DNA of 42,034 nucleotides, taken from contig JAIESR010000135.1 of assembly GCA_019745775.1 (NCBI GenBank), positions 1 through 42,034 on the forward strand, given 5' to 3'. This document shows, one piece after another, positions 13,449 to 33,925 of this stretch; positions within the stretch are counted from its first letter, which is position 1, and every line of letters starts with the position of its first letter. The notes under the pieces are model-generated. The model did no database searches. It saw only the letters and a program-made list of their open reading frames with translations, and was not told where the DNA came from. A program made the position numbers and the translations under genes. Source of the DNA: Xanthobacteraceae bacterium. Lineage in GTDB: Bacteria; Pseudomonadota; Alphaproteobacteria; Rhizobiales; Xanthobacteraceae.

Positions 13449-13459
13449 GTGCCGGGTGC
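13449..13459. repeat. Candidate left attachment core of the island
   Basis: GGTGCCGGGTG here equals the sequence at 37033-37043, the 3' terminus of tRNA-Thr read from the complementary strand. It sits between the MFS stop and the first 75-bp repeat, where attL is expected. Eleven bases is short, so this could be chance in GC-rich DNA. Confidence 0.35.
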
Positions 13460-13532
13460 CCGTTTTGGTCAGCCCCCCCGACACAGCCCCTTAAATTTAC
13501 CCTGCTCCTTGGGGCTCTAAAAGCCGCCTAGG
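13457..13532. repeat. 75-bp cassette-boundary repeat, copy 1
   Basis: This is one of four copies. It starts TGCCCGTTTTGGTCAG, runs through an A/T-rich centre, and ends with GCTCCTTGGGGCTCTAAAAG then CCGCC. AGCCCC and GGGGCT within it can pair across a loop of about 20 bases. It lacks the TT before GCCCG found in the other copies and is instead joined to the tRNA-like 11-mer. Confidence 0.9.
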
Positions 13533-13852: not shown

Positions 13853-15742
13853 ATGACGCGACACAATTCCACGGGCGTCAGCGCGCACGCTGGTGAGGCT
13901 ATGATACGCGCTGCGCAATACTTGCGTATGTCGTCAGAAAACCAACGATACTCGACGGAAAATCAGCAGAATGCGATTGCTGAGTATGCTGCACGCCACG
14001 GTTACTCTGTTGTCGCTTCCTACGTCGACGCCGGGAAGAGCGGCCTGTCGCTCAAGGGCCGGGACGCGCTGAAGCAACTTCTCAGCGACGCTCTTGCTAC
14101 GCCTCGCGCTTTCGATGCCATACTGGTTCTTGATGTTAGCCGGTGGGGGCGATTCCAAAACCCCGACCAAGCGGCGCACTATGAGTTCCTTTGCCGACAG
14201 GCCGGCGTTCGAGTCGTGTACTGTGGTGAGCCATTCGGTGAAGACGTTGCCCCCATCACGACCATCATCAAGCATCTGAAGCGGGTTATGGCTGGCGAGT
14301 ACAGCCGCGAGCTTTCCGCGAAGCTTGCCCGGGCCAAACGTCAGCAGGCGCAGCTCGGCTTTCGCCAAGGCGGAAAAGTGACCTATGGGTTTCGCCGGCT
14401 CCTCGTCGACTCTCAGCGAAATCCTCGGCAGATTCTAAAACCTGGAGAGAGGAAGGCCCTCGACGGTGACAAAGTGATCGTCGTTCCTGGACCGCCAGAC
14501 GAACTCGCGGTGATCCGCCGGATTTTCAGGCTGTACGTGCAAAAGCATGTATCGGTCTCGGAGATTGTCGAGCGGTTGGCGAAGGCTGGCGTGAGGGGAA
14601 ATGGAGGTGGGCCACTTACACGGCCGGCCGTAAGAAACATTCTCTCCAACGAGCTTAACATTGGCCAGATGACCTACAACTTGACGACCCAGAGGCTGCA
14701 GAGCCCGAGGCAAGCAAATCCAGAGGAGCTTTGGACAAGAGTACCGGCCTTCGAGCCCATCGTGCCGCCAACTCAATTTCGGAAGGCTCAGGAGCTGCTT
14801 GCGCGGTCGGCACGACCGCGTTGGGATAAGGAATCGATCCTGCGATCGTTACAGAGTCTGCTTGCCGAGAAAGGACGCCTTTCGCAAACGCTCATCAATC
14901 GAGCGAAAGATGTGCCATCGGCGGACACCGTCATCTACCAGTTTGGGTCGCTCACTGCGGCTTATGCCGCCATTGGCTATGAGCGTCCGGTCATACCCCC
15001 ATTTGGAATGAACGCGAAGCATCGGAGCGTCAGCGCGATCTTCAGAGGACTGCGAAAGCTCTACGAAGCCGAAGGTGAGGTTACCATTCGGCTCGTAGAT
15101 GCATGTCCTGCGCTACCGTCGAGTTGGTACATTCGTCGTTACTTCGGTTCTCTGGCTGAAGCGACGAGGCTGGCTCGCGTGCCGGTGCTGAACCATAGCG
15201 AGCAATTACGCCGTGCGTGGAAGCGTCGGAAGGCGGCTGGTTGCGATGAACATTACTTCGGTGTCCGCTGGACGGATGCGGCTCTCCTCAAGGCATTGCG
15301 TACCCTCGAGGCTCAGTACGGCTACACTTCGGCAAATCTGATTGACCAAAACGGCGTTACTCCGAGCGCGTATTATTACGTCAAACGATTTGGCTCCCTC
15401 ACCAAGGCGCGCGCCTTGGCGCAGCTTCCTGTTCTGACCCGCTCTGAGCTTACCTCCACCGGCAAGAAGCGAAAAAAGGAAGGCCAGTCGATCCGACGGG
15501 GGCCGCGGTTTCCAGATCAGCGTCCCCGCTTGTGCTATCGTTCTGATGACATTTTGCGCGGACTAAGGGGCTTGGCGGAGCGCTGGGGATTTATCTCGGC
15601 TCGTTTGATCAATGATGACGCCAGCCTGCCTTCCTCGGCTTCGGTGGTTCGCCATTTTGGTAAACTCTCAAAGGCCTATGAAATGGTGGGACTGGTACGC
15701 CTGGAAGGGAACCCCGTCCGATTTGGCGTGCCGCGAAAATAG
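13853..15742 (+). CDS. Large serine recombinase with C-terminal HNH-associated repeats
   Basis: The 629-residue protein has an N-terminal resolvase domain (YLRMSSENQ, catalytic Ser27). A recombinase domain follows at about 180-320, with VTYGFRRLL, RRIFRLYVQKHVSVSEI and RPAVRNILSNELNIG. The usual zinc ribbon and coiled coil are absent. Instead four repeats of about 50 residues follow, near 326-375, 391-441, 476-527 and 562-612. Each has a helical start, an L(I/V) centre and an FGSLxxA end (YQFGSLTAAYA, RYFGSLAEATR, KRFGSLTKARA, RHFGKLSKAYE). They resemble the homing-endonuclease-associated DNA-binding repeat. The ATG at 13853 has AGGAGCGGGGA upstream. It lies between repeat copies 1 and 2 and may have moved these cassettes. 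Confidence 0.85.
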   Translation: MTRHNSTGVSAHAGEAMIRAAQYLRMSSENQRYSTENQQNAIAEYAARHGYSVVASYVDAGKSGLSLKGRDALKQLLSDALATPRAFDAILVLDVSRWGRFQNPDQAAHYEFLCRQAGVRVVYCGEPFGEDVAPITTIIKHLKRVMAGEYSRELSAKLARAKRQQAQLGFRQGGKVTYGFRRLLVDSQRNPRQILKPGERKALDGDKVIVVPGPPDELAVIRRIFRLYVQKHVSVSEIVERLAKAGVRGNGGGPLTRPAVRNILSNELNIGQMTYNLTTQRLQSPRQANPEELWTRVPAFEPIVPPTQFRKAQELLARSARPRWDKESILRSLQSLLAEKGRLSQTLINRAKDVPSADTVIYQFGSLTAAYAAIGYERPVIPPFGMNAKHRSVSAIFRGLRKLYEAEGEVTIRLVDACPALPSSWYIRRYFGSLAEATRLARVPVLNHSEQLRRAWKRRKAAGCDEHYFGVRWTDAALLKALRTLEAQYGYTSANLIDQNGVTPSAYYYVKRFGSLTKARALAQLPVLTRSELTSTGKKRKKEGQSIRRGPRFPDQRPRLCYRSDDILRGLRGLAERWGFISARLINDDASLPSSASVVRHFGKLSKAYEMVGLVRLEGNPVRFGVPRK

Positions 15743-16088
15743 GGCGGTACTCACGTTTCAGCTCATGGGCCCGTTCCGGGCTCACGTGCTTCTGGCCCTA
15801 AGCGGACGTCGATAGTTGTAGATCGCGGGGTGGCGTTCTTCTTGCCCGTTTTGGTCAGGCCCCCCGACACAGCCCTTGAAATTTACGCTGCTCCTTGGGG
15901 CTCTAAAAGCCGCCTAGAGGGTCTTTGCGAGCGCACGCCGATAGGCGCCCCGGACCATCACCGTCCGCAGGTGAGTTTGAAAACGCCCGGGAAGTGGGGC
16001 GGCGAGGCTTTGCCCAGCAAACGCGGTACGTGCGCTATTGACCCTTAGCGGACGAAATGGCGAGCAAAGTAGCCGACGGAAGTCGTCA
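15743..16088. other. Non-coding junction between cassettes 1 and 2
   Basis: It holds AGCGGAC intergenic repeats near 15793-15808 and 16038-16052 and the second 75-bp repeat. No gene is seen. Confidence 0.6.
15842..15917. repeat. 75-bp cassette-boundary repeat, copy 2
   Basis: Same orientation as copy 1. It begins TTGCCCGTTTTGGTCAGG and contains the invariant 20-mer that ends in CTCTAAAAG. Mismatches to copy 1 fall mainly in the central A/T stretch. Confidence 0.92.
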
Positions 16089-17825
16089 TCACTGATCTCT
16101 TCCAATTGTCTGTTCGGCTTTCGAGCCAACGCCGTGTCTAACGCAACGCATGTAAGTCCTCAATGCCAGTCGGAATGATGTTGATGTTACGGCGGCTGAG
16201 CACAGTTGATGGTATCGCCAGTTCTCGTCGACCCATGCTGCGATAAGCCGTGCGGAGCCGTCCCCTGCACAAAACAAGCTTCGATCTAGTTCCTTGACGC
16301 CTAGGCCCTCGAAGAAGGCCAAGGCCGTGCGCCAATCGTCATCGGTCGCGTCGGGAGGCATTACAAACAGCGTCTTGTGCAGATGCCCGGCGGTCGCGAC
16401 GAGGTTCATCTCCCAGACGGCACCCTCGGACCGGCCCATGACAAGCACGATCGTTTGCGCCTCAGCGGCGAGCCTCGCGACAGCGTGCTGCCAGTCCTGG
16501 TGCTGGAAGTAGTCGCGCGACGCACCATAGGACGGCAGCGGTTCTCCGGGATCGCCGACCGCGACCACAGGGCCGAGTTCCGATCCTTCGTCGACCACGA
16601 CGGCGTCAAGGCTCGACGACAGCACAGGTACGCTCAGGATTCTTCCCAGCAGATTGATCGGTGGGGAGGCGAGTGGGATCGTGTCCGTTATGAATGGGCG
16701 AAGGAAAAGAACCGGAGGGCGTTGGTCGCGGTGCTGAGCTAGACCTATTGACGTTTGCAAATAGCGGAAAGCTCTCCTCCTCAAGAAGTAGGCCAAGCCG
16801 AGCAGCACGCCGGCCTTCAACGCCTCGACGCCGATTGATAGCATGAGTTGGTATGGTGGTGTCAGCCAGAAATGGAGCGGCATCGGGTCGCCGACTTGGT
16901 CGTACATCCTCTTGAGATCGAGCGCGCCAGCCATCAGCTTGACGAAATTTACAAGTGCAAACACCAAGACTGGGACCGTGCCGAACACGATGATCAGCGG
17001 GACCAGCGACGACACGTTGGCGAAGTACATCAGGAGCGCCGTCCTTAGCTTTCGATCGGCGATGCCGATATTCTTCGGCGCGCCCACCATGCGCAAGGCG
17101 ACCTTCCCCCAGCCGGACCCAGCCGGCACGTCTGCACAGACTTGGGTCTGCCATGGCAACAACGGATCGACTTTGAGGAAAGACCGCAGGGCGTGGAACG
17201 CGACCCAGGCGGCAAAGGACAAGACACCAAGGAGGAGGAGAGCTTCCAGCAGCTCGAAGCCGGCACCCTGCTCGGTCAGCGGAAGCAGCAACTGCTCGAT
17301 CGCTCGCGGCGCGAGACCTGCCAAGGTCATTGCTACGTTGGAAGCATTAAATGCGAGGATCAATAAAAAGACCCCCATCTCGGGCAAGCCGAACCGGCCC
17401 CGCAGCAGCCGGACGATGAGCCAAATCGTGCCACCGATCGTGACGACGACTCTCAGCAGAAACGTTGGCTTCGCGAACAGCCGCAAATCGTAGAAGGCGA
17501 GTTGACCTGAGAAGTACGAGCCGATCGAGTGGGCAGTGATGGTGCCGAAGGGGGTGGGCGTTTGGCCCGCGAAAACGTCGCCGAAGTAGAGGGCTGCCTC
17601 GTGCAGGAGCAACAAGACCAACGTGACCGAGTAGATCGGGATCAGCGCCCCGAACATCCAGCAGTAGATTAAGCTCAAGTTGACGAAGGGTGTATAAAGG
17701 TTGGCCGTTCGTTCGACATCGTCAAGCGGTATGCGTGAACCCCACATTGGCAACTCATCTATCGGGGGAAACAATAAACGCCGTGGGGAAACCGAAGCCC
17801 GTTTCGTCGTGCCGGTGGTCTGCAT
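16089..17825 (-). CDS. Polytopic membrane protein with TIR/SLOG-like cytosolic domain
   Basis: The 578-residue protein has several hydrophobic segments in its first two thirds, including SLIYCWMFGALIPIYSVTLV (about 50-70), LLRVVVTIGGTIWLIVRLL, GVFLLILAFNASNVAMTLAG and LVPLIIVFGTVPVLVFALV. A soluble C-terminal domain from about residue 368 starts PVLFLRPFITD and continues with LDAVVVDEG, GPVVAVGDPGEPLPSYGASR, WQHAVARLAAEAQTIVLVMG and GAVWEMNLVA. This layout resembles the 'LR(S/P)F..D - GP(V)VA(I/V)G.PGE' domain of bacterial membrane proteins, which has a TIR/SLOG-like Rossmann order. I do not know a proven function. It stands alone between two copies of the 75-bp repeat, which suggests a single-gene cargo, possibly defensive. 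The start is uncertain: the ATG at 17825 has no clear ribosome site, and the ATG at 17747 is an alternative. Confidence 0.7.
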   Translation of the reverse strand: MQTTGTTKRASVSPRRLLFPPIDELPMWGSRIPLDDVERTANLYTPFVNLSLIYCWMFGALIPIYSVTLVLLLLHEAALYFGDVFAGQTPTPFGTITAHSIGSYFSGQLAFYDLRLFAKPTFLLRVVVTIGGTIWLIVRLLRGRFGLPEMGVFLLILAFNASNVAMTLAGLAPRAIEQLLLPLTEQGAGFELLEALLLLGVLSFAAWVAFHALRSFLKVDPLLPWQTQVCADVPAGSGWGKVALRMVGAPKNIGIADRKLRTALLMYFANVSSLVPLIIVFGTVPVLVFALVNFVKLMAGALDLKRMYDQVGDPMPLHFWLTPPYQLMLSIGVEALKAGVLLGLAYFLRRRAFRYLQTSIGLAQHRDQRPPVLFLRPFITDTIPLASPPINLLGRILSVPVLSSSLDAVVVDEGSELGPVVAVGDPGEPLPSYGASRDYFQHQDWQHAVARLAAEAQTIVLVMGRSEGAVWEMNLVATAGHLHKTLFVMPPDATDDDWRTALAFFEGLGVKELDRSLFCAGDGSARLIAAWVDENWRYHQLCSAAVTSTSFRLALRTYMRCVRHGVGSKAEQTIGRDQ

Positions 17826-18188
17826 GGCCTGATTACGGCGAACGTGGGCTCGTTGGTTGAACTTACCAATGCCATCTGCCCGGCACCATGGCCTCGGGGA
17901 GGCGACGAGCCGAATGCCATCGAAGTCTGCGCATGGCCCAGAGCGGACATCGACAGTCCGCTATCGGCTCACAACAGGGTGGGGTTCTCCTTGCCCGTTT
18001 TGGTCAGGCCCCCCGACACAGCCCATGAAATTTAGCCTGCTCCTTGGGGCTCTAAAAGCCGCCTAGGGCCCTTCATACGCTAGGGTTCCATGGAGTGTGA
18101 CGGCTTGGCGGAGTCCGGTGCGGGCAAAATCGCCCGCGAGCAAGAACCTATGAGCTGCGGAGCTTGTGGCGAAGCCCGCATCGGGGAT
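17826..18188. other. Non-coding junction between cassettes 2 and 3
   Basis: It holds an AGCGGAC-type intergenic repeat (about 17930-17965, including the short palindrome-like GCGGACATCGACAGTCCGC) and the third 75-bp repeat. No gene is seen. Confidence 0.6.
17991..18066. repeat. 75-bp cassette-boundary repeat, copy 3
   Basis: Same orientation as copies 1 and 2, and closest to copy 2: both share GGGGTGG or GGGTGG and TTCT just upstream, then TTGCCCGTTTTGGTCAGG. It stands 122 bp beyond the end of the ASCH gene. Confidence 0.92.
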
Positions 18189-18626
18189 CTAGCGCAGCAG
18201 TCGTGACTCGAGAGTCCTCACCATTTCGGGCGGAACAGCAAAGAGCTTGAGGGCGCCCCGTGCACTGATAGGGGCAGACAAGCGGCGTGGTCCCGCCAGC
18301 AGCCAGCCGAACAATCCGGCTCCGCCGCTTCCTGGATCGAGATGTAGCTCTTGCCACTGCCGCCATCGGACGCCATCGATTGGCACCACGTCCTCGATGG
18401 TGACCAAGCCGATGTATCCGCCGGTAAAGGTATGAGACATGCCAAAATGGGCCATGGCTCTCTCATCAGGAGTAGCGCCGGCGTGAAGCCAAATCGGTCC
18501 GCGATAGGGGGTGGACCACTTGCGGAGTTCCATACGCTTTCGACCTGAAACGATGAGCTCCGCCCACGGTTGTTTCACGCTCAACGCTGGGATTTGAACA
18601 AGCGCTGTTTCCCCCATTGTCACCAT
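18189..18626 (-). CDS. ASCH-domain protein
   Basis: The 145-residue product is an ASCH domain, a beta-barrel related to PUA that binds RNA or modified nucleobases. The motif LSVKQPWAELIVSGRKRMEL near residue 16, with RKWSTPYRGPIWLHAG just after, is diagnostic. GYIGLVTIEDVVP follows. The ATG at 18626 overlaps the QueC-like stop as TGATG, the same coupling seen for the QatB-like gene; a GTG at 18629 is an alternative. No ribosome site stands upstream, so translation is probably coupled. It is the last gene of the five-gene operon. An ASCH protein beside a deazaguanine-type enzyme could read, remove or bind the modified base, but that is inference. Confidence 0.85.
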   Translation of the reverse strand: MVTMGETALVQIPALSVKQPWAELIVSGRKRMELRKWSTPYRGPIWLHAGATPDERAMAHFGMSHTFTGGYIGLVTIEDVVPIDGVRWRQWQELHLDPGSGGAGLFGWLLAGPRRLSAPISARGALKLFAVPPEMVRTLESRLLR

Positions 18627-19915
18627 CACGCACGTTGCCGACCGAAGACGTCGAGGACTTCGGACGCAAATGTCTTGTAGAGCTTTAGGGTCTCATCAGG
18701 GGTGAGGGCGTTCTGCTCTAAAATTGCTACCTCAGTAGAGGTTGGCATCTCAAGCAAGAGATCGCCAAAGCCGTACGTCTTTGCACTGACGCGCCGCGCG
18801 AAAGCAAGATAGGCGTCGAGGTGAACACGGACGATCGGCTTGCTTGCATTTGGATCAGAACGGGATGTGAGGTCGACCGCATACTTGCCTTCCTTAGCGC
18901 CCGCTGCGGCTCGCCGAACGATGCATGGGATGCAAGTCCCGCAGGGTGTTGTGCTGCTCTTCTTTATGCGAGCGCCGACCACTGTCGTCGCGCGGATATT
19001 CCAGCAGGTTTCTGTTCGGGCAATCACCACATCTTGTTTGGTCTGCTTCAGCCACTTCATCGCCTGACGCTTGGTTAGAGCCAGAAATGGGTTTTCGATG
19101 TGGATCTCGCGTCCGAGAGCGAGGCGGAACAAATTCTCGGCCGCGCGGTGGACAGCCGGATGTGCATGTCGGGTCATGCGGTAGAGAGGAGCTGGCGGAA
19201 CGGCAAGCGCCAGGGGACCGTTTTCGAACTGGTAGATCGTCTTGCCTCCGACCGCATCAAGAAAGGCGGCCGCCAAGGACAGATAGTAAAAGGATCGATG
19301 CTGGAACTGGCCACCAACTTTTGCGCCCCGCGCGCGCCGCCAGATTCCCTGAATCTGAATCAGATTGTCGTAGCCGAGCGCCGCGGCAATTTCTTGCTGG
19401 AGGAGCAGGTTCCGCGAATATGCGCCGACCAGAACGAACTCTTTCTGACGGCCGCGTAGCATGGCGAGGCCGCTCGTGCTGTCGAGTCCGCCAGAGAATA
19501 GGATTACCTGCTTTGCCGGAGAAGGATCAAGCTGTGGATGTTTGTGTCGTTCATAGAGGGTGTCCAGGCCCGTTGGCACCGAACCCCGCGGCGTAAAGTT
19601 GAACGTCCACTCGATGCCCCCTTGAACATATAACAGCTCCGACAGAAGGTTGGCGGCTTTCTTCCAGACCGCGGGCTTGCGGACCGGCATTATGACTTCA
19701 AATCGCGAGGTGCGCTCGGTCGAGATCCGCCTCGGCATCGACCGATCGATCTCATGCACGATGCGGGAAACCTCAATAAGATCGAGTGCTTGATCCTTGA
19801 GGCCCTTACTGGGGATTGGACCATGAATGTCCCAATTCAGAGCCGAAAGGTCGAAAGACAAAGTATCCGATCGTCCGGACGGCATGCGAACATAGCTGCA
19901 TCTTGCAGTGCTCAT
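18626..19915 (-). CDS. QatC/QueC-like PP-loop ATPase
   Basis: The 429-residue protein has an N-terminal extension (1-130) and a QueC-type domain from about 134. The PP-loop SGGLDST is at 141-147, ENGPLALAVPPAPLYRMTRHAHP at about 231-253, and four Cys (304, 325, 328, 331; TETCWN and CGTCIPC) match the zinc site of QueC. QueC converts 7-carboxy-7-deazaguanine to the nitrile preQ0 using ATP. Longer QueC-like proteins occur in the Qat anti-phage system (QatC) and in type IV CBASS. To my knowledge those attach a deazaguanine to the N-terminus of a partner protein. No queD, queE or queF lies in the window, so a housekeeping queuosine role is unlikely. The ATG overlaps the QatB-like stop by ATGA. 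Confidence 0.85.
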   Translation of the reverse strand: MSTARCSYVRMPSGRSDTLSFDLSALNWDIHGPIPSKGLKDQALDLIEVSRIVHEIDRSMPRRISTERTSRFEVIMPVRKPAVWKKAANLLSELLYVQGGIEWTFNFTPRGSVPTGLDTLYERHKHPQLDPSPAKQVILFSGGLDSTSGLAMLRGRQKEFVLVGAYSRNLLLQQEIAAALGYDNLIQIQGIWRRARGAKVGGQFQHRSFYYLSLAAAFLDAVGGKTIYQFENGPLALAVPPAPLYRMTRHAHPAVHRAAENLFRLALGREIHIENPFLALTKRQAMKWLKQTKQDVVIARTETCWNIRATTVVGARIKKSSTTPCGTCIPCIVRRAAAGAKEGKYAVDLTSRSDPNASKPIVRVHLDAYLAFARRVSAKTYGFGDLLLEMPTSTEVAILEQNALTPDETLKLYKTFASEVLDVFGRQRA

Positions 19916-20721
19916 TTTGCCACCTTTGTCGGCGCCTTGGTCGGCAGTTCCACAGAGGCGAACTCGTGATAGTTGTCCGCAATGACCGCGAGCAAATCCT
20001 CGCGCTTGTTGCCGCGCTGTTTGATGTAGTTGACCTCAAACCGTTCGTACCATCCGTCGGCAATTTCGCGCGATGCCGTGTCCATGCTTATCTGCAGTTC
20101 GGGCGAGATTTCCATTATGTCCTTTCGCACCACGTGCCGCATCAGCCCGCTCAAGTAGTAGCCGCTGACGGAGGTGAGCACCTTGATGTCAAATCTCGCG
20201 GCGAGGGTGGCCGGGCTGGTGCGTTGGAACACAGCCAAGTCGTTGCCAATGGCCTTCAGGAAGATGTCCGACAGCACGAGCCGGACAACCTCGAGGTGAC
20301 GCTCATCGGTCGAACGGCTTTGATGCTCTCGAACCAGGGCGCGAGCAAAGGCTGACAGCGAGGCTTCCGTGGCGCTTAACTCGTACTTTGCGGCAATCTC
20401 GCTCCACTCCATCTGCTTGCGGCCATGGCGTGACAAAGCAATCAGCTCCTTGAGCACTCCCTGCACGAATGGTGATCTGAGCACCGCGAGGAAAAATTCG
20501 CGCCGACCACGGTCCTGCAGCATCTCCGAAAGAACCTTGCGCGCACCGGAGAGGCTTGGGTCTTTGTTGACATTCCTGGAAAGGCCTAAGAGGGACGCGA
20601 CCAGCTGCGCGACGGACCCTCCAGAGCCGCTCCTGCTACTTCGCGAGGATCCGGACCCAGTCGAACCCGAGCCTCCTGCTCCATAAGACCCGCTGCCACC
20701 ACCAAAGGAACCTGTGCCCAT
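19912..20721 (-). CDS. QatB-like protein with MGT glycine-rich N-terminus
   Basis: The 269-residue protein begins MGTGSFGGGSGSYGAGG, a flexible Gly/Ser tract of about 35 residues, followed by a helical domain (AQLVASLLGL, then EFFLAVLRSPFVQGVLKELI and onward). The short MG(T)-Gly/Ser start and its place directly before the QueC-like gene match QatB of the Qat defence system. The start at 20721 was chosen because its ATG overlaps the CHAT stop as TGATG; the in-frame ATG at 20739 would give MGGGVLMGTG. Either choice leaves Gly at position 2, the end proposed to be modified in Qat. The C-terminal part (YERFEVNYIKQRGNKREDLL) has no motif I recognise. Similarity to QatB is by pattern and context, not alignment. 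Confidence 0.7.
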   Translation of the reverse strand: MGTGSFGGGSGSYGAGGSGSTGSGSSRSSRSGSGGSVAQLVASLLGLSRNVNKDPSLSGARKVLSEMLQDRGRREFFLAVLRSPFVQGVLKELIALSRHGRKQMEWSEIAAKYELSATEASLSAFARALVREHQSRSTDERHLEVVRLVLSDIFLKAIGNDLAVFQRTSPATLAARFDIKVLTSVSGYYLSGLMRHVVRKDIMEISPELQISMDTASREIADGWYERFEVNYIKQRGNKREDLLAVIADNYHEFASVELPTKAPTKVAK

Positions 20722-23700
20722 CAAGACACCTCCGCCCATACCTCGGCCGCGCTTCTAGTGGACCATTGCTGCATGTCATCGCGCATCGCGAGCTCATCCC
20801 AGGGCCGGCGCATTCCGAGCACCGCTAGACCAGCGCAGGCGCGGGCGAGCGTTGCCTTGTCCGATTTCCCCGAGAGGACAGCGCGCCTTTGATACTGCTC
20901 GCGCGTCCGATGCAAAGCAGCGCAGGCGGCTTCCTGGGCATTGGAATCCGCGAAACGGCGGGCACCCCAGAGTCGACTTTGGGCCCCGTATCTCACAGCC
21001 CATAGATGCCAATCGAGAAAATCAAGTGGCTGCTGATAGGCCCGAAAGGTCGCTGCGTCCCATTGCCTGTCCTGTCGCCGGACCTCTAGCCAATAGCGCC
21101 GCGCGTCGGCGATCCGATGAGCCACTTCGTAGCTGCATTGACGCGCCTCGGCCGCGCAGTCAGTCAAGAAATTTATGGCGCCTTGGATGTTAGCTTCCTT
21201 CTCGGCGAGCTTTGCTTGTGAGTAAAGGATATCGCATCTGATCTCTGTGAGCCTGTGTTCGAGACTGAGCCTATGCTCGAGACAGAGCGCACCAGCTTCT
21301 GCGAGATGCTTGCTCGCGATCGCGCGCTGAGCAGGATCGTCCTTGAATGGTGCAAACTCGAAGAGACACTCGGCAAGGTTTCGCTTAGCCGCGCAAATCG
21401 CGCGTAACGCTTCAGGCCGGCTGTCACCCTCCCAATCCGTCAACAAGCGCTCGAACACGTTTCTGGCCTCTTGGGCGTCGCCACGAAAGTAGAGTTTAAG
21501 TCGCGCCAACTGTAGTTCGTGCTCACGCAGGTCTCTCTCGGCGGGTTCGAAGTTTGGATTGCCTGCGAGCTCTGACTTGCAGAGCGCCACGGCCGCTTCG
21601 GCTTCCTTCCACATTTCATCCCGCGCGCCGGGTTCATTGCGTCCTTTCCAGACTTCCGAGAGCAGACTTGCGCGACGCGCTTTGTCGACGTCGCGGGTAG
21701 GGAGCGCGCGATCGAGCCATATCGCTGCGCCTTCCAGATCTTGAAGCTGAACGAGCCTCTGGCCGATCTCGATATAGATTTCCGGATAAATCGCTCCAAA
21801 CGCCTCAGGAGGCAAAGTCGACAGGACCCGTGCAAGGCCAATCCAGTCGACTGTGCCGTGTCTGGTTTCGACAAAAGCATTCACCGCTCGGGCCAATTCG
21901 GCCCAGCGTTCCGCACGAGCGAGATGCCGAAGAATGGCTAAATCGCCCCACGCCAACGATGTCTGACCACCGGCCGAAAGGTACCGCGCAAGATCATTGT
22001 GGGCTGCTACAATCGCAGAGCGGCCGACGAGCGCGGCCGTCCTTTCGCGATAACGGTCGGCAAGGACGAGGCCAGACCCGGATTCGCGTCGTACGAGAAC
22101 ACCATCCACAGCGGGCGAGGCCGGTTCGCCCGTAATCGCGCTGAGGTCTGCTGCGCGGATTGGCCGAGGCTCCGCAGCGAGGATGGCAATAGACTTTGGC
22201 GCCACGGTCAAAGCAGCGTTGATTAGCTGATCGGAATCCTGCGTCTCGTCAGTAGTACCGTCCCGAAACCAAGTGTCGGAGGGAAGTCCGGAAACATCTT
22301 CGGGTTGGCATACAGCAACGGTCGTGTCAGCGGGTGCGGACAGAATGATGTCCCACATAACGTCATTTTTCGCTGGGGCGCTCACGAATATAACAAACGC
22401 CCGTGGGAGAGCCAGGAGGCCCTTGAGCCCATCCTCCGCTCCAATAGCAAGGTTCCCGATAGCGGCAGCAAAGGTCGCATCGTCGGTGGCGGGCAGCAGA
22501 GACATTCGTAGATTTTGAGCCCATTGCTTCAAGCGCCCGGCATACGACGGTCCGCCTTCAGGGACGTCGATGAGGATTGGACAGGCGCCAAACTGCCGCC
22601 GTGCCGCTTCCAGCAAAACGGCACATTCTAAAGGCGAGCCCTTCGCTGAACCTAAGGGTAAGTCAATTCGGACGCGACGCCGTTCGCGCCAGATATTCGC
22701 CTTTTGAAAAGTTTCATTGCGGAGCATCGCTGCTCCGAGGCTCTCCTCCTGCGATGACCTCCGAAGAAGGCGCAGAGCCATGTCTGAGGTTCGAGCGGCG
22801 CTATCGTCCGCCCCCCATGTGACGCGTTTGATCGGCTCTGCGATCGACCAGACGGCAGCGGACGCCCAGTCGTGCGGTCCTTGTGTGCCAACGAGTTCTG
22901 AGCTGAAGACGACGTGCCGCGCTCCAGCGGCGGCAAGCTCCGGCGCATTACCGCTGATAAACCGGCTCAAATAATCGGACAGGAAGACTTTGGCAACGGA
23001 TACACGAATTGGCGAGCGCATAGCCACCATCGACACCGCACCCAGGCGGTTGAGAATGTCGAATGCTGCGGGACCGTGCACTGAGGCTCCGCCAGACTGC
23101 GAGCTCTCACCTAGCGAACAGGCGACAAAGCTCCAGAATGGCGGGAACGCGATACCAGTTGCCGCGATACGCGCTGCGACATCGCTTAACGGAATCCAGT
23201 CGTTCAGAGAGATCTGAATGCGCGGATTTGGCGTGCTCTCGCCGTGTCCAAAATAGAGGACTAGGTGAGGTCGGGCAGCTCCCACTTGCGCCGTCCAAGC
23301 TGAGGGCTCGGCGTCGGAGACGTCGATCACAATCGGATTATCCGGCGAATCCACGAGCTCGCGTTGCGGAGCGGCCAACTCCGCGTAGATTTGCCTGATG
23401 AGTGCCTCGATCTTCTCAAACGAAAAGGCTGTCCAGCGCCCAGGATGACCAACAAGGGAGACAATTCGTAGTCGCTCCTCAGAACGCTCGGGTCGCCAAG
23501 GGCTTGTCGTGCTGTGAACCCGAACAGGCGCAAACAGTGGGCGACGTTCCTCGTGATCGAAGATTAGCGGGAGCGCCTCCCATGTCATCCTGTCGGCAAA
23601 ATCAGCCCCCCTAACGGCAAACGCGGTTGCTTCATTGGCGACGACACAAATCTCCTCTATTGCTCGTTTCAGGTCGAACAGCTCGTCGAGTTGTTCAAGC

Positions 23701-23852
23701 GCCCGGCGAAGATTCTTTTGAAGTGGGTCGGGGTTGGGCTTGCCGATAAGCTTATAGAACGGGGCGCTGCGGGGATAATCTGAGTTACCCCGGCGCGTGC
23801 GAATTTTGGTACTAAGGAGGCGCTTCTCGACTTCAATGGTGGCCCAGCTCAC
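20721..23852 (-). CDS. CHAT-domain caspase-like protease with TPR-like C-terminus
   Basis: The roughly 1,043-residue protein has a CHAT peptidase domain at about 120-330. The catalytic His lies in LVLYFGHGES (about 203) and the Cys in WSFVACSLGESSQ (about 245). GPAAFDILNRLGAVSMVAMRSPI follows, as expected for the caspase-haemoglobinase fold. The middle (about 370-600) is a mixed alpha/beta region without a clear P-loop. The end (about 610-1043) is all-helical with TPR/SEL-like character (WLDRALPTRDVDKARRASLL, EARNVFERLLTDWEG). The start was set at the GTG at 23852 because it overlaps the upstream stop by GTGA; a TTG at 23873 would add 7 residues. In known bacterial systems (for example Craspase/TPR-CHAT and caspase-like effectors) CHAT proteins cleave host or partner proteins on activation. 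Here it replaces the QatA ATPase and QatD of standard Qat. Confidence 0.85.
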   Translation of the reverse strand: MSWATIEVEKRLLSTKIRTRRGNSDYPRSAPFYKLIGKPNPDPLQKNLRRALEQLDELFDLKRAIEEICVVANEATAFAVRGADFADRMTWEALPLIFDHEERRPLFAPVRVHSTTSPWRPERSEERLRIVSLVGHPGRWTAFSFEKIEALIRQIYAELAAPQRELVDSPDNPIVIDVSDAEPSAWTAQVGAARPHLVLYFGHGESTPNPRIQISLNDWIPLSDVAARIAATGIAFPPFWSFVACSLGESSQSGGASVHGPAAFDILNRLGAVSMVAMRSPIRVSVAKVFLSDYLSRFISGNAPELAAAGARHVVFSSELVGTQGPHDWASAAVWSIAEPIKRVTWGADDSAARTSDMALRLLRRSSQEESLGAAMLRNETFQKANIWRERRRVRIDLPLGSAKGSPLECAVLLEAARRQFGACPILIDVPEGGPSYAGRLKQWAQNLRMSLLPATDDATFAAAIGNLAIGAEDGLKGLLALPRAFVIFVSAPAKNDVMWDIILSAPADTTVAVCQPEDVSGLPSDTWFRDGTTDETQDSDQLINAALTVAPKSIAILAAEPRPIRAADLSAITGEPASPAVDGVLVRRESGSGLVLADRYRERTAALVGRSAIVAAHNDLARYLSAGGQTSLAWGDLAILRHLARAERWAELARAVNAFVETRHGTVDWIGLARVLSTLPPEAFGAIYPEIYIEIGQRLVQLQDLEGAAIWLDRALPTRDVDKARRASLLSEVWKGRNEPGARDEMWKEAEAAVALCKSELAGNPNFEPAERDLREHELQLARLKLYFRGDAQEARNVFERLLTDWEGDSRPEALRAICAAKRNLAECLFEFAPFKDDPAQRAIASKHLAEAGALCLEHRLSLEHRLTEIRCDILYSQAKLAEKEANIQGAINFLTDCAAEARQCSYEVAHRIADARRYWLEVRRQDRQWDAATFRAYQQPLDFLDWHLWAVRYGAQSRLWGARRFADSNAQEAACAALHRTREQYQRRAVLSGKSDKATLARACAGLAVLGMRRPWDELAMRDDMQQWSTRSAAEVWAEVS

Positions 23853-24166
23853 CGGCTCCACCAGTAGCGCCAACTATCTATCAAGCCACTGGCGGCACTC
23901 AGCTTCGGTTCCTTGGATTTGTCCGCGGCAAGTCCTTGCAGCACAGACGGCGCGGCAATGCCGTAAGCAACTGCATCGAGAACCTTGCTTGGAGCAAATA
24001 TCCAGGCGACGAAAGCGCCTACGGCCATTGAGAGGACGAGGCCGAGCCAGAAATGCCACTTGGCCAAGTAGGTCGGAGCTTCTCCATGGCGCTCACGGAT
24101 CAACCGAAGGATGTCCGGAACGATGCCGCCTACGGCGCCCCACAGTATGGTCGTCCAAATATCCAT
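23849..24166 (-). CDS. Small membrane protein leading the CHAT-Qat operon
   Basis: The 105-residue protein has a hydrophobic N-terminal segment (TTILWGAVGGIVPDILRL, residues 4-21) and a strong second helix (FWLGLVLSMAVGAFVAWIF, about 39-57). A third weak apolar stretch (AVAYGIAAPSVLQGLA) and a polar tail follow. It is probably an inner membrane protein with two or three passes. The ATG at 24166 was chosen (GGGGGCA upstream); in-frame starts at 24178 and 24208 also exist. Its stop overlaps the CHAT GTG by 4 bp, so it belongs to the operon. It could anchor the system at the membrane or be the effector, but nothing decides this. Confidence 0.65.
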   Translation of the reverse strand: MDIWTTILWGAVGGIVPDILRLIRERHGEAPTYLAKWHFWLGLVLSMAVGAFVAWIFAPSKVLDAVAYGIAAPSVLQGLAADKSKEPKLSAASGLIDSWRYWWSR

Positions 24167-24454
24167 GACTGCCCCCATTCTCGCGCAGTACACTTTATCG
24201 ATCGCCACCCCAGCATTGACCAGCCTCAGAAAGCACCGAGGTCAATCCTCGGTGGATCGGGAAGACAATCCCCGGACGCAACTTTAAGGTGTGGCCGGTG
24301 GTGACGTCAATACGCCCGCGCCGTTCAGTGAGCGCCGGCGGCACACTCTTCGGGCAGAGAGGTGCTGCCCCAACGAAACATGGTTCGACCTAACGCGCGT
24401 TGACTCATTGTGTCGTCCTACATGGTCGGAGAGACCTAGCTGGTGCAGCTTCGC
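24167..24454. other. Promoter region of the CHAT-Qat operon
   Basis: This is the upstream region of the five-gene minus-strand operon and the right edge of cassette 3. No gene, operator or clear promoter box is visible to me. Confidence 0.4.
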
Positions 24455-24527
24455 TTGCCCGTTCTGGTCAGGCTCCGACACGGCCCCTCAATTTACCCTG
24501 CTCCTTGGGGCTCTAAAAGGCCGCCTC
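24455..24527. repeat. 75-bp cassette-boundary repeat, copy 4
   Basis: This is the most diverged copy. It begins TTGCCCGTTCTGGTCAGG, has lost a few bases around CCGACACGG, and keeps the invariant 20-mer GCTCCTTGGGGCTCTAAAAG. Orientation is the same as the other three. Confidence 0.9.
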
Positions 24528-26747: not shown

Positions 26748-28181
26748 CTAGGTGTCATCCACATCTTCAATTTCGGGTTCAATTGGTATCGGACCCTCTT
26801 CCTCGCGCTTTTCGCTCCTCCACAATTCTTCGAAACGCGCGTCGACCTGGGCCAGCCTACGAGTGACTCGGTTGAGCGGATCCGCCGCCACCGATGCGAA
26901 CCCCACCGGAATTTCCACGCTTTCGGAAAGGGCGACGGCGACGAGCATAAGCGTTGCGACCGCTGGGATGTGTATGACCTCGACGGCAGGACTGAGAAAG
27001 CCGGGCGGAGCTATATGGCCTTCGTCGAAGAGATTTCTAAAACGGTCGGGGTGGTCGCGACGAGATATCGTCGGACAGATAAGTTTCGTGCGGATGGAAA
27101 CCTTTCCAAACCTTCGCCGCAATGCGAACTTTATCGCGAGAATTGCCTCTTGGAGCTCGGGCGAGCAGCCCCAACCGGATCCCCCCGGGCGGTACCATAC
27201 GATCTCGCGCTCGCTTGACGCTTCGACCGACGCAGGTTTCGGAAGATTGTCGATGAGCTTCGCTAAAAAGTCGACGTTCCTGCGGATGTAAGAAGCGCCA
27301 ATGATGTTCTGCCGGTCTGGATTCTTCCTGTCGGGGTTGAGTGACAGCCATTTCGTAAGGTCAAACCGCGCGGTTCCGCTGTAAGCGTCGGTAACGGTGG
27401 TCTCGCCCGACAGCCCCGAAAACTCTGCAAGGGCGGCAGCCGACGCCTGTATCCAATTTAGCTTCCGGTAGGCGTCCAGCATTGCGGTAGCAAGTGGCCT
27501 GAACCGCAGTGCATCTTCGGCCTCGATGGCGATTAAGTTCGGGCGCAGGCGGGGCTCAGGATCGAAGACAAGATCCTCGTCCATCCGAAATACGAGCGAA
27601 CCAAAACGCTCGGGAATCGATTCCGACACAGAGTAGAGCGTGAAGCGATCTGGATTTGCCATCCGCCGCACCTTTCTCAGGTACTCCGCGAAATTGTCTT
27701 CGAACGCCTTCTTCGCATAGGATCCCGGTAGGTCCCGCGCCATCCCAGTTGGTCGGATATCGATCAGGTTTCGTGCTGATCGCGTGCGGTCCGGCTTAGC
27801 CATGTTCTTGCTTACGAGGTCGAACCACAGGCGCTCCACCCAGCTGTCGACCTCGACAACAAGCGGTATCGCGTCCTTCGGGCCGCGGAAGAGCTCATGA
27901 GCAGAGGGATGGAGCCGTGCGGTGTCGCCTTCCAGGACTACGAGTCCTGCGCTCGTCAGGTCGGCCATCACCATTTCAGTCTCTGCGGCACTGAAACCGA
28001 AATATGATGCCAGCCGGCGTACCGGCACGTCCTCACAGAGCTTGAGCGTGCGCAGGACAAACTCATCGACTACCGGCAGTCTACGATCTCGCATGACGTT
28101 AGCCCTGATCAGGAAACGCCGACAGGGGATGTTGAAGCCGAAGCTGCGGACCGTTGTTGGCCCTGGGATACTGCCCGCCAT
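26748..28181 (-). CDS. Winged-helix protein, partner of the NERD-kinase-helicase
   Basis: The 477-residue protein has an N-terminal winged-helix region (about residues 34-95: LPVVDEFVLRTLKLCEDVPV, then RRLASYFGFSAAETEMVMADLTSAGLVV). A long region of no family known to me follows, with SWVERLWFDLVSKNMAKPDR, RFTLYSVSESIPERFGSLVF and a basic stretch. The C-terminus is acidic (EEEGPIPIEPEIEDVDD). Its ATG at 28181 overlaps the helicase stop as TGATG, so the two are one operon and translation is coupled; a GTG at 28184 is an alternative. The tight coupling to a large NERD-kinase-helicase protein suggests it is a regulator or substrate-recognition subunit of a two-gene defence-type system. That role is inference. 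Confidence 0.7.
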   Translation of the reverse strand: MAGSIPGPTTVRSFGFNIPCRRFLIRANVMRDRRLPVVDEFVLRTLKLCEDVPVRRLASYFGFSAAETEMVMADLTSAGLVVLEGDTARLHPSAHELFRGPKDAIPLVVEVDSWVERLWFDLVSKNMAKPDRTRSARNLIDIRPTGMARDLPGSYAKKAFEDNFAEYLRKVRRMANPDRFTLYSVSESIPERFGSLVFRMDEDLVFDPEPRLRPNLIAIEAEDALRFRPLATAMLDAYRKLNWIQASAAALAEFSGLSGETTVTDAYSGTARFDLTKWLSLNPDRKNPDRQNIIGASYIRRNVDFLAKLIDNLPKPASVEASSEREIVWYRPGGSGWGCSPELQEAILAIKFALRRRFGKVSIRTKLICPTISRRDHPDRFRNLFDEGHIAPPGFLSPAVEVIHIPAVATLMLVAVALSESVEIPVGFASVAADPLNRVTRRLAQVDARFEELWRSEKREEEGPIPIEPEIEDVDDT

Positions 28182-29251
28182 CACATGGCGCCCGCTTTGA
28201 CTACGGCGACGTTTGGGCCGCCCGCTTCGATCTCATCGAGCACTTGCCGCATCGGCCACCGTTTTCCGACGTTGCCCCACATGCGGCGGGCGCCAACGAT
28301 AAAGAGCCGTTCCTTCGCCCGCGAAAGAGCGACGTTGCAGCGGTTTGGAATCCGCACGTGACCTTGATCGCGCTGGTCGTTGCAACGGACGAGCGAGACG
28401 ATGACGATAGTGTTTTCCTTGCCTTGGTAGGAATCGACTGTGTCGATGCGGACCATGTTCCGGAAGCGCACATCCCATGGGCGTCGCGAAAAGGATTCCT
28501 CTATTCTCGCCTTCTGTGCGCTGTACATACAGATAACGCCGATCGGCGTCTCGCTCTTGCCGGAGGCAAGCGCCTCGATGAGGTTCGCATCCGCTGCGAT
28601 GCGTTCGAGTAACCGCATGACGGCTTCGGCTTCGGCCTCGTTGCTGAAAGTCGTCTCATCCCATGGGGCGGGAATCTCTTTGTGGTCTGGTTCGTCGGAC
28701 GTGTCGACCCAGGTGACTGGCATCGCGAGCGGAGGAAGGAACTGCCGCGCGAACGCCGAATCTGCCTCGCGGTCGACTGAAGTCTTAAGCCGAACGCCGT
28801 GGGGTTCGTAAAAGATCTTGGATACCAAGTCGCAGATCGCAGGAGCCATCCGATACTGTTCTGTCAGGGTGCGCCCGTTGTTCCTCCCGTACTGGGACAG
28901 ATATGCACGCTCGAAGTCACTTCGCTCGAACTCGTCACGAGGCGTTTCAGGCATCTCAACTCGCAATGCCTGCAGCACGGCACGCTCTGTCATTGGCAGG
29001 AGCTGGCGGTGGTCCCCGACGAGCAGAACCCGTCGTCCAAGCTGGATTGGTACTGCAAGTTCTCCCGGTGTGCAGCGCGCAGCTTCATCGACAATGACCC
29101 AGTCGTACGTGCTCCGGTCCATGCGTATCTTCGTCTGGCCCACTCCCACACAAGTGGCTGTGACAATGGTTCGTGTCTTAGCCAAAAATTCCTCAAAATT
29201 GCGATAGGGCGAGGCTAGCGACGCCGACCACTCGCGCGAGAGTTCAACCAA
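28181..29251 (-). CDS. C-terminal half of SF1 helicase, frameshifted from the upstream gene
   Basis: This frame carries the second part of an SF1 (DNA2/UPF1-type) helicase: Walker B IVDEAARCTPGEL, motif III LLVGDHRQLLP, motif IV/V ICMYSAQKARIEE and DTVDSYQGKENTIVIVSLVR, and motif VI NVALSRAKERLFIVG. The Walker A motif is in the upstream frame (29266-32880). The frame is open upstream of its first ATG, reading FDLLSKHPDTSPSDLTKARQ, and joins the upstream frame at the T4 run near 29310-29313. It is therefore not an independent gene but the rest of one protein of about 1,560 residues. Either a 1-bp indel, a sequencing error or a -1 ribosomal shift at GCC-TTT-TCG separates them. Confidence 0.85.
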   Translation of the reverse strand: MVELSREWSASLASPYRNFEEFLAKTRTIVTATCVGVGQTKIRMDRSTYDWVIVDEAARCTPGELAVPIQLGRRVLLVGDHRQLLPMTERAVLQALRVEMPETPRDEFERSDFERAYLSQYGRNNGRTLTEQYRMAPAICDLVSKIFYEPHGVRLKTSVDREADSAFARQFLPPLAMPVTWVDTSDEPDHKEIPAPWDETTFSNEAEAEAVMRLLERIAADANLIEALASGKSETPIGVICMYSAQKARIEESFSRRPWDVRFRNMVRIDTVDSYQGKENTIVIVSLVRCNDQRDQGHVRIPNRCNVALSRAKERLFIVGARRMWGNVGKRWPMRQVLDEIEAGGPNVAVVKAGAM

Positions 29252-29265
29252 TTGTCTGGCTTTCG

Positions 29266-32200
29266 TTAAGTCTGACGGCGACGTATCGGGATGTTTCGAG
29301 AGCAGGTCGAAAAGGCCGCGTCGAGCTCGGCGTCAACACGCGCCGAATCGGCGGGACGTCCGAGGACCCGTTCCGCCGCCGCTGCAAACGCGGTCACTGC
29401 CGATCTCACCGCTGCGTCCCGCCTATGCCGTTCACGCCGCGACGACGATCTCGCACTGCGTTCGGCCTCGGCAAGCGTCTTGAGGCGCCGGACGCGCTCG
29501 CCGAGGTGCCGATCAATATCGACCGCGTCGGCGACGAAGGCCCGCTTTAAGCCGATAGCGCTTCCGAGACCGACAACGCGGTGCCGGAATGCGTTTTCGA
29601 AGCGCGACTGGACGCGTTCCTGAAGCGATGTGGTGTGATACGGACGAATTTTCTCGGTGATGCCTTTGGAGCCGATGCGCAGTAGGCTTGGCCGACGTCC
29701 CCCCAACTTTTTGAATAGGTCGAGCAGAGCCTCAATCGCGTTGTTTACCGCTTCGTGCGATTGGCTCGCTATCAAGATCTTCCGGGCTCCCTTTTCCGTC
29801 GTCAGCCAGTGCACAAGGGAGGCGATAAAGAGCGTCTTTCCGGTGCCAGGGGGCCCCTGCAAAAATCCAACCGGTCCGCGCGCGATCACGTGGCGAAATG
29901 CGTTTCGTTGACCGCGATTTAACCGGTATCGATCGAGTGTAGCATCGGAAACCTCGTCACCGATGTCGACGGCTTCGAGTGAAAGGTCCGGCTGGAAGTA
30001 GCCGATTAAACCCTCGATCGCCGCCTCGTCATCGAGGATACGGTCAACGGCCTTGGCTCGCCGGTCGAACGAAGACCGCGACCTTCGGTCGACGAGATTG
30101 ACACGGTCGCCGGGGACAAGCCGTCGGTCGGAATATTCGACAACCAATCTCTGCGCGTCGGTCTGCTCTAGATTCACTTCTCCAATCTTGCGGCCGTTGG
30201 GCAGTCTCACATCGACGGTTGTCCCCGTGTCGAAGTCAAAATCCTGTCCCCGTCTTTCGTAAGCATAAACTGCCGTAGGTCCCCCAGGGGGGCCGATCTC
30301 TTGGAGAATCTCCACCTCGGGCTGCAACGACGCTTCAAGCTCAAGGAGCTTCTGCCAGTAGCGAGGCACGTCAAGGGAACGTCCGGGCGCACCCTTTGCA
30401 GTGTCGCTGTCCGCCTCCGGTTGCGGACCTACGAGTTGAGATATGAACTCGAGCAAGGCCTCGAGACCCGCGTCGGGTCCCTCAGTTACCTCGATCAGCA
30501 GGTTCGCAGGAACACCGTGCTGCGAGGCTTGTGAAAGGCGAGTAAAGTTCGCCGGTACGTAGCGGATATCCGTGATCTGGCCCTTACGGACCTCGATAGT
30601 CAATTCGCGTTCGATGCCTGCGATCATGTATTCGACGGTCGCCGCATCGATTTTCCCGGTGCGTAGATAATACCGGCCGTTGTCAGGTTCGAATGGACCG
30701 CGGGCGGCGCCCTTGAAAGAGATTACGAGCTTGCGCGGCCGCGCGGCTTCGATTCGCGTCAAGGCGTTGCGAAGCACGACGGCGACCGGATCGAGCGTCC
30801 CCATGCGCGGCCTCGCCAACTCTTGGTCAAGCTCGGCAATTTCGGCGGCAAGGCTCCCATCGTCCAAGGCCATAAGCAGATCGCGCACGATCTTTGTCGT
30901 TCCATAGCGGTCAAGCTGTTCGTCAGTGAGTGCGTCGCGGTTGTCCGGGCACATCGCTGGTGTCCTGATGCGGCCGTCGCCCACATCGGTCATGTCGAAG
31001 AGGTCAAGTAGTCGAATGTCTCGTCCGTCGTCGCACACAATGATGTTCTTTGGCGCAATATCGCCGTGTGAATGCCCCATCGCGTGAATCGCGTTCACGC
31101 ACTGGACGATTCGCTCCGAAAGTCGCAGCGCGGATTCAGCATCCTTTGGTGGGGCATCGCTGAGCCGCATTCCCGGCTCGAACCGGTAGGCTACGAAGGG
31201 ACCGGTTGCTGAAAGCCCGGCGCGAATGTAGCGAGGGACGCCGGGCAACGGACTGCTAACGAGTCGTCCGACGCCGTCAAACAACCTTGTCATAGCGATA
31301 TCGCACGCGGCGCTGGTTCCGCGCCTGATGCTGGGCCAAGTTTTGACCGCGATTTCGTTGTTTTCGGCATCTCGACCGATGTAGATGTTGCCGCCTTCGA
31401 GTTTGCGCACCATCGGCCACAGGAAATAGGGCACATCGTCGGTTTCGAATCTGTCGATCAGCGTCTGGTCGACGGTGGACGTCTCGGAGCGGTCAACGAG
31501 TGCCGCAAAGCTATCCGCCATCTCACGAGCATCTGCGAATCGCGACGGCGCATCCCTCGCGGTCGCACGCGCGAACCATGCCGAGAGGTCCGGAATACCC
31601 GACGGTAACATCGCTGCCGCGGTCGCGGGGTCAGTCGGGGGCGAGCCACCGGTGAATATTCGGAAGACAAGCTGCCCGAGTGCGTATACGTCGCGCTGCT
31701 TGCTAGTACCTATAAGCGCCTTGTTCGCATCCTCGGGAAGCGCATCCGCATGGCCCCGCAATACCAATACCCAATTTCCGAGCGATTCTTCGTCGGGCAA
31801 CTGACAGGTCATTAGACCACCGAGTGCAACGCGTGTCGGAGATGCGGCCCAGACTGATCTTGGGCCGAGGTCGCGGTGCACGATGTCTTGCGCATGCAAC
31901 TCCGCTACGATTTCCATTGCTGAGGCGGCAGTCGTAACGCGATCGTCGACGTCGAGGTCGTCCGCTGCGCGTTCGAGGTAGCGATCGAGGGTAGTGAGGC
32001 CGGTAGTCAGGCGCCTGAGTTCGAAGTGTTGGGTTAAGATCTCGTACTTCTCGTCACCAACCGGAGGAAGGATGGCGTTGCGTTCTACGAGCGGGCTTCC
32101 CAGTTCGTGCAGACGACCGATCGCACGCAACTCTCGGCCAGCGATGAAACGCCGTCTATCCGGACTGTTGAGACCAGCAGGAAGTTTGTCGAACGCCCAG

Positions 32201-33271: not shown

Positions 33272-33925
33272 GTGAAAGACGCCATTTCTTACGAACGGGT
33301 CTCTACCGTAGGCCAGCGTAAGAGCGGTTTGGGACTTGATGCCCAACGCGAGGCCATCCGTCGCTTCGCTAAGGCTGAGGGTTTCCGGATCGTCGAGACG
33401 TTCACCGAGGTCGAGACCGCCAAAGGAGATACGCTGGCGCGACGGCCGAAGCTCGCAGCAGCCCTAAAGGCAGCGCGCAAGCTCAGGGCACCGGTCCTCG
33501 TCGCGAAGCTCGATCGTCTGTCTCGCGACGTGCATTTCATCAGCGGTCTGATGACGGAAAAGGTGCCCTTCATTGTCGCGGATTTGGGGCAGCAAACTGA
33601 TCCCTTCATGCTCCACATCTACGCGGCGCTCGCCGAAAAGGAACGCCGGCTTATCAGCGAGCGTACGAAGGCGGGCCTAGCGGTAGCCAAGAAGCGAGGC
33701 AAGAAACTTGGGGGTCGCAACGCCCAGTCGGACCGCACTGCGGCCGAGGCGAGCAAGCGAGCTGAAGAACTTCGCCCGATCCTCACCGAGCTATCGCAAA
33801 TGTCAGCGAACAAGGCAGCCGCCGAACTCAATCGGCGCAAGGTCGCGACACCTGCCGGCGGTTCATGGGCGGCAACTCAAGTAATTAGATTGCGTCACCG
33901 GTTAGACGCGGGTTTGAGCTCGTGA
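33272..33925 (+). CDS. Small serine recombinase (resolvase/invertase)
   Basis: The 217-residue protein has the resolvase catalytic domain with Ser11 in [42 protein letters not shown] and the E-helix region [18 protein letters not shown] follow. The C-terminal 70 residues ([20 protein letters not shown], then [16 protein letters not shown]) form the short helix-turn-helix DNA-binding part. It resembles the resolvase-type proteins widespread in Rhizobiales. The start is a GTG at 33272 with GGGGGAGGG upstream. An 11-bp inverted repeat lies just before it. Its stop overlaps the next gene by GTGA, so they are expressed together. Confidence 0.88.

Follow-up and report, generated by a model that had tools for sequence, protein, structure and literature searches.

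The 42,034-nucleotide stretch of DNA analyzed here (hereafter, the window) is contig JAIESR010000135.1 of a Xanthobacteraceae bacterium (assembly GCA_019745775.1). On its minus strand (18189-24208), it carries a five-gene operon. The first gene codes for a small membrane protein and the second for a CHAT (caspase-like) protein; a Gly/Ser-headed protein, an enzyme of QatC/QueC type, and an ASCH protein follow. This operon is probably an undescribed relative of the Qat system. While the QatC, CHAT, and ASCH families are known, their joint operon without QatA or QatD is new, as far as found. The preferred reading, to which a probability of roughly 45% can be given, is that of a Qat-like module for N-terminal-glycine modification, which would control a caspase-like protease and act against phages. 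It is based on a gene order shared by six loci, the kinship of the enzymes with QatC and their grouping in one clade, the retention of QatC catalytic and zinc residues, a Gly-rich MG[ST] start in the protein encoded just before the enzyme, and the invariant His and Cys of the CHAT protein. The plasmid, transposase, restriction, and Mokosh-like gene context, and the QueC and QueD-type genes of the host, are further reasons for it.

The five genes are chained by stop-start overlaps that can be read directly in the sequence, and the four junctions announced in the original prediction are all present. GTGA (23852-23849) links the small membrane protein gene (23849..24166, 105 amino acids from ATG 24166) to the CHAT gene (20721..23852), and TGATG (20723-20719) links the latter to the Gly/Ser-headed gene (19912..20721, 269 amino acids). 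The enzyme gene (18626..19915, 429 amino acids) follows through ATGA (19915-19912), and the ASCH gene (18189..18626, 145 amino acids) through TGATG (18628-18624). The open reading frame (ORF) listing opens the CHAT gene at TTG 23873, with GTG 23852 as the alternative; residue numbers are counted from TTG 23873, so that 7 has to be subtracted for GTG 23852. For the Gly/Ser-headed gene, the start at 20739 given by the same listing was rejected in favor of ATG 20721, since GGAGGT, a likely ribosome-binding site (20728..20733, minus strand), lies 6 nucleotides before this ATG within the TGATG junction, and since, at each of the five sister loci visible in full, the MG start abuts the CHAT stop codon or overlaps it.

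The CHAT, Gly-headed, QatC-like, and ASCH genes occur in the same order at six loci, some in bacteria only distantly related: the window, plasmids of Bradyrhizobium and of Mesorhizobium, a contig from Streptosporangiaceae (L033), and the genomes G578 and G662. At a seventh locus (G650), the CHAT gene runs to the contig edge, leaving its neighbors beyond view. As the order recurs at six loci, the arrangement exceeds chance, which rules out a fortuitous gene cluster: the four genes form a conserved operon, and the genes do occur together elsewhere, the point on which the original prediction had made itself refutable. The core proteins of the sister loci are 19-42% identical to those of the window. 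Relatives are carried on plasmids, with transposase and restriction genes nearby.

Several collections were searched for further members. With the CHAT protein as tblastn query, 2 of 72,556 plasmid records were matched (Bradyrhizobium japonicum USDA 123 and Mesorhizobium sp. AR10), both carrying the four-gene core. In genome samples that overlap one another, only the host's own genome was matched at the order (1/297) and class (1/385) levels, 7 of 265 genomes (3 at full length) were matched in a single-genus sample, and 8 of 391 in the family sample, where four matches were full length (own genome, G578, G650, and G662) and four covered part of the CHAT region. In the wider stretches around two of the partial matches (G533 and G671), the other three core genes are absent. 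Phage records gave no match, a genome-contig scan with a single QatC-like protein returned 34 stretches without any relative, and none was found either among the 47 viral-contig stretches returned by the CHAT profile. Scans with a QatC alignment yielded at least 51 loci in genome contigs and 70 in viral contigs (a second viral scan gave the same 70), many of these 121 loci lying on short contigs; a CHAT gene is listed at only one of them (L033), together with all four genes. Iterated models of QatA, QatD, and classical QatB hit neither the window nor any of the six sister loci at E 1, in agreement with the absence of QatA and QatD first proposed from the window. Across the 121 QatC loci, models built in the same way detected the complete set of four Qat genes at 15, and QatC plus QatD at 3 more; QatC alone was detected at the remaining 103 (including L033), a number that may include loci with divergent QatA or on short contigs.

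The assignment of the enzyme as QueC-like, already made from the sequence, is borne out by profile matches (Pfam QueC, 8.3e-11; PADLOC QatC, 1.3e-31), and the only PDB structures listed at E 0.01 are those of QatC (9vlk, 2.9e-22; 9zee, 1.9e-16). The window enzyme contains the SGGLDS loop, D45, T248, H250, and the cysteines C304/C325/C328/C331. On the basis of a QatC motif list taken from PMC13329287, all six CHAT-linked enzymes keep the zinc cysteines, SGGxDS, the catalytic Asp (D45; D63 in Escherichia coli), HP, TK, and the ENG glutamate. The window enzyme lacks the WxR tryptophan and the initial Arg of RxRxxxF. Cap9 and QueC hold 7-deazaguanine with a Tyr and an Asp, whereas QatC has T278 and T280 at these positions, and changing both threonines together abolished defense (PMC13279940). 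Alignment to the QatC structures places T248 at T278 and H250 at T280. In the CHAT-linked enzymes (6/6), the threonine pair is thus only half kept, with Thr248 and His250 replacing the base-holding Tyr and Asp of Cap9/QueC. His occurs at the T280 position in none of 60 other proteins: Thr is found there in all 19 QatA/QatD-linked enzymes and all 18 long ones, and the other 23 have Thr (8), Ser (14), or Ala (1).

In a tree of 66 QatC-like proteins (proteins shorter than 380 amino acids excluded, and the long ones reduced at random to 18), all six enzymes linked to CHAT form one clade (support 100/99), made of two supported sub-groups (window, Bradyrhizobium, G578, and G662; Mesorhizobium and Streptosporangiaceae). 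The position of this clade among the other QatC groups has a support of only 55/84. The host genome has QueC (1.1e-66) and two QueD-type matches, which makes a deazaguanine precursor plausible in this host. Besides the CHAT-linked enzymes, many QatC-like proteins of about 570-820 amino acids, mostly on viral contigs (L034-L153), as well as a supported group of 14 Actinomycetota proteins in the tree, stand without detected QatA/QatD; these may be additional QueC-based systems, or enzymes by which phages modify bases.

The Gly/Ser-headed protein, which is the proposed substrate of the enzyme, begins with MGTGSFGGGSG in the window. In Bradyrhizobium, G578, and G662, the start reads MGSGSFGGGSG, and the proteins of Mesorhizobium and Streptosporangiaceae begin with MGSS. 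M1, G2, and a Gly-rich tail are kept in the six partner proteins, all of which start with MG[ST] and are encoded directly before the enzyme. QatB needs the glycine of its MGTS, and the type IV CBASS substrate has MGGS, of which the glycine is modified (PMC13279940). The partner thus has a counterpart of the QatB N-terminus and low-complexity tail (MGTGS, MGSGS, or MGSS) but not the exact MGTS string. The description of this protein as QatB-like, made in the original prediction, therefore holds for gene position and N-terminus, where the resemblance is clear from the sequences; for the helical part, comparisons gave no significant resemblance, as discussed below. No relevant NCBIfam match was found for the partner, and a Foldseek search with its poor structure model gave no match at E 0.001 (0/280).

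The identity of the protease, another element of that prediction, is confirmed through its relatives: three of seven aligned CHAT orthologues match the Pfam CHAT model above its cut-off (one barely, with 24.2 bits against 24), and His210 and Cys252 are invariant in all seven. The C-terminal half is helical/TPR, with a TPR_12 match (2e-5, below the cut-off of that model) in the L033 protein only. Other CHAT proteins of about 900-1220 amino acids occur in related genomes (L165, 6399-10064; L166, 6322-9048), with no Qat-like genes nearby.

The last gene of the operon proves to be the ASCH gene that had been predicted (Pfam ASCH, 8.1e-10, 39.8 bits for a cut-off of 21.2), and its product is 42-45% identical to the five sister proteins. 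In PADLOC, it has weak matches only (best 0.0054), and the first three operon proteins have none. ASCH folds bind nucleic acids. An amidohydrolase activity, as in E. coli YqfB, was also considered; the position of the catalytic Thr would be occupied by Glu33 here. BapA, whose predicted structure is ASCH-like, is a base-flipping 5-hydroxymethylcytosine (5hmC) DNA glycosylase defending against phage (PMC13160076). The ASCH profile found 26 loci in viral contigs. In a viral contig of the QatC scan, an ASCH-like frame (L150, 8103-8498, minus strand; 2.9e-11) is separated by about 2 kb from an operon of qatABCD type.

The edges of the operon are more variable. Whereas the four-gene core recurs, the small membrane protein, included in the five-gene set initially proposed, is not conserved in sequence among loci. 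In the window, this candidate protease partner has its hydropathy peak (2.15) at residues 53-71 of a 119-amino-acid reading, with weaker peaks elsewhere, and no Pfam match over the cut-off. In the Bradyrhizobium plasmid and three genomes (L027, L162, L163, and L164), CHAT is preceded by a related protein of about 151 amino acids with several hydrophobic stretches, which is unlike the window protein in sequence. The Mesorhizobium (L028) and Streptosporangiaceae (L033) loci have no gene of this family; downstream of ASCH, both carry a convergent gene, with 72% identity between the two. At E 0.01, three further relatives of this gene were found in the 72,556 plasmid records (L207, 3116-6735; L208, 2127-6780; L209, 5980-6723): two of them, in Embleya and Streptomyces, adjoin CHAT genes, and the third is in a Gemmatirosa record without annotation. 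The sole NCBIfam match of the family is prok_gasdermin (E 0.14, for one of five relatives, 11.9 bits for a cut-off of 100), and no gasdermin was found in the PDB profile search. The gene was not found in the four genomes of the membrane-protein type, in a search without positive control, and is absent from the window operon. It appears to code for a CHAT-associated protein, hypothetically gasdermin-like, its relatives being a candidate new family of CHAT-partner proteins.

In the mechanism that these elements suggest, Met removal would expose Gly2 of the partner, to which the QatC-like enzyme would, using ATP, join a small acid, 7-deazaguanine or, as the base-reading residue is changed, a related compound. 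Such a marking would be analogous to that carried out by Cap9 on its CD-NTase, and to that proposed for QatC on QatB. Once modified, or disturbed during infection, the partner would switch the protease on by way of the helical/TPR half of CHAT. ASCH may read or remove the mark, or sense altered nucleic acid, and the protease would cleave a membrane-acting neighbor or cell proteins, stopping growth before phage release. A more elaborate version, in which the operon would be a third QueC-based immune system, with a His250 QatC-like ligase marking the partner glycine, the mark gating the CHAT protease, ASCH as a reader or eraser, and an exchangeable membrane-attacking partner (the small membrane protein or a gasdermin-like pore protein), is rather unlikely as a whole.

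Several observations weigh against the preferred reading. His250, standing where a base-reading residue is expected, predicts a changed substrate, and the three members scored with the NCBI QatC equivalog model (126.9, 129.7, and 106 bits) do not reach its cut-off of 280 bits. The helical part of the partner has no significant likeness to QatB: compared by hhalign with 21 QatB proteins picked by the string MGTS, the probability was 4.9% (E 0.0081), falling to 1.3% (E 0.038) without the tail. With a hidden Markov model (HMM) of these QatB proteins applied to the six real and 1200 shuffled sequences, two members ranked first and third (best score 7.7 bits), and the window partner 236th. Pfam gives no match at E 1 for the CHAT protein of the window, and three more of the seven orthologues also miss the CHAT model. 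The structure models of the CHAT protein and of the partner are unusable overall (predicted local distance difference test, pLDDT, of 41.0 and 42.6, respectively). An interaction between the protease and the partner is only a proposal, and the system is rare.

Another possible, if doubtful, explanation dispenses with the covalent mark: the CHAT protein would cleave an adjacent membrane or pore protein, while the Gly-headed, QatC-like, and ASCH part would sense infection by binding. The gene neighborhoods lend themselves to this scenario, with a membrane protein gene preceding CHAT in the window and four other loci, and the convergent gene, with its CHAT-adjoining relatives in Embleya and Streptomyces, following ASCH at two others; moreover, a CHAT protease cleaves its partner Csx30 in type III-E CRISPR (PMC11106740). 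The ATP-site and catalytic residues of QatC, kept in all six enzymes, nevertheless argue for chemistry rather than for a binding-only sensor, and the supposed protease-effector pair is weakened both by the dissimilarity of the membrane proteins from one locus to another and by the faint gasdermin signal of the convergent family. The chemistry could instead be directed at small molecules, which QueC proteins are known to make: the enzyme would make or edit a free nucleobase, a nucleotide, or a nucleic-acid modification, ASCH would handle the modified base, in keeping with its nucleic-acid-binding fold and with the BapA precedent, and CHAT would respond to its loss. This is very unlikely, as it leaves unexplained the conserved Gly-rich protein encoded before the enzyme, and as the residues conserved in the clade are those of QatC, not of QueC; in addition, QatC fails to restore queuosine in E. 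coli (PMC13329287).

Finally, the operon might serve another stress response or a plasmid-maintenance task, given that CHAT, ASCH, and QueC-like domains also occur outside defense. This seems quite unlikely: the operon is patchily distributed, on plasmids and next to transposase, recombinase, restriction, and Mokosh-like genes, and the closest kin of its enzyme is the QatC of an anti-phage system. If the preferred reading, glycine modification controlling the protease, is true, nucleobase-protein conjugation would be tied to caspase-like signaling, and QatBC-type modification would appear as a portable module with different effectors.

The surroundings of the operon are those of a genomic island. 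A 75-bp direct repeat occurs four times in the host genome, always within the window (13457-13531, 15843-15917, 17992..18066, and 24454..24526, the last two on the plus strand), and divides the island into cassettes containing a serine recombinase, a 578-amino-acid membrane protein, and the CHAT-QatC operon. As initially described, two copies flank the operon, the third at its downstream edge and the fourth (87%) at its upstream edge, but the repeat belongs to the island and is not a feature of the operon at the sister loci, where a single 12-base match was found. One 23-base piece was detected among 247 other family genomes, nothing on plasmids, and the single-strand folding of the repeat is no better than that of shuffles. 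It marks this island, not the operon, and may be a recombination site. The 578-amino-acid protein (16089-17825), located between two repeat copies, has a hydrophobic N-terminal part, and neither a Pfam match over the cut-off nor a PADLOC match. Mokosh-like genes (26748-32880) were recognized by PADLOC, with MkoB at 1.2e-51 and MkoA matches split over two adjacent frames (29266-32880 and 28181-29251). Three serine-recombinase genes are present (13853-15742, 33272-33925, and 35446-37044), of which one has an HNH-repeat match and another ends at a tRNA-Thr gene (37033-37106); the region looks like an integrated mobile element, and the recombinase at 35446-37044 has a relative in L033 (19742-21211).

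Regarding known systems, no catalogued name was found for the operon in PADLOC (2023), NCBIfam, or literature searches, so that the set does not appear to be an already named system. In PMC10952713, QueC appears under qatABCD and type IV CBASS, and CHAT under Borvo and type III-E; the excerpts of the QueC-family papers PMC13279940 and PMC13329287 do not mention CHAT, ASCH, protease, or caspase, and no literature joining 'QatC' with 'CHAT domain' was found in a search that most subscription papers lie outside. Type IV CBASS also places a QueC-family enzyme beside a protein whose N-terminus has a glycine motif (PMC13279940), but the enzyme residues here are QatC-like rather than Cap9-like, which rules out membership; general profile scans, not aimed at either, found no CD-NTase or Cap10 among the operon genes. 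The type III-E CRISPR Craspase (TPR-CHAT/Csx29) likewise fuses a CHAT protease to a helical/TPR half, whereas the operon has no CRISPR part, and its trigger would be a modified protein. Canu (caspase-nuclease) shares the presence of a caspase-family protease in a multi-gene defense locus (PMC12799240), but this protease is MALT1-like instead of CHAT, and no gated nuclease was recognized here. The likeness to bacterial gasdermin loci is limited to the convergent gene of L028 and L033, whose family adjoins CHAT genes in two of the three other plasmid records; a single relative gives a weak gasdermin match, and the window operon has no such gene. The closest system remains qatABCD, with which the operon shares an enzyme that has the active-site and zinc residues of QatC, its gene following directly on that of a protein with an MG[ST] start and a low-complexity tail. 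An ordinary qatABCD is, however, ruled out by the change of T280 to His and by the lack of detectable QatA and QatD; classical QatB was not detected either, the QatC score is below the NCBI cut-off, and CHAT and ASCH genes are found instead. The reaction of QatC, and the way in which marked QatB would stop phage, are open questions named in PMC13279940. By keeping the pairing of the partner with the QatC-like enzyme, while swapping QatA and QatD for CHAT and ASCH, the operon offers a concrete output that can be assayed, proteolysis.

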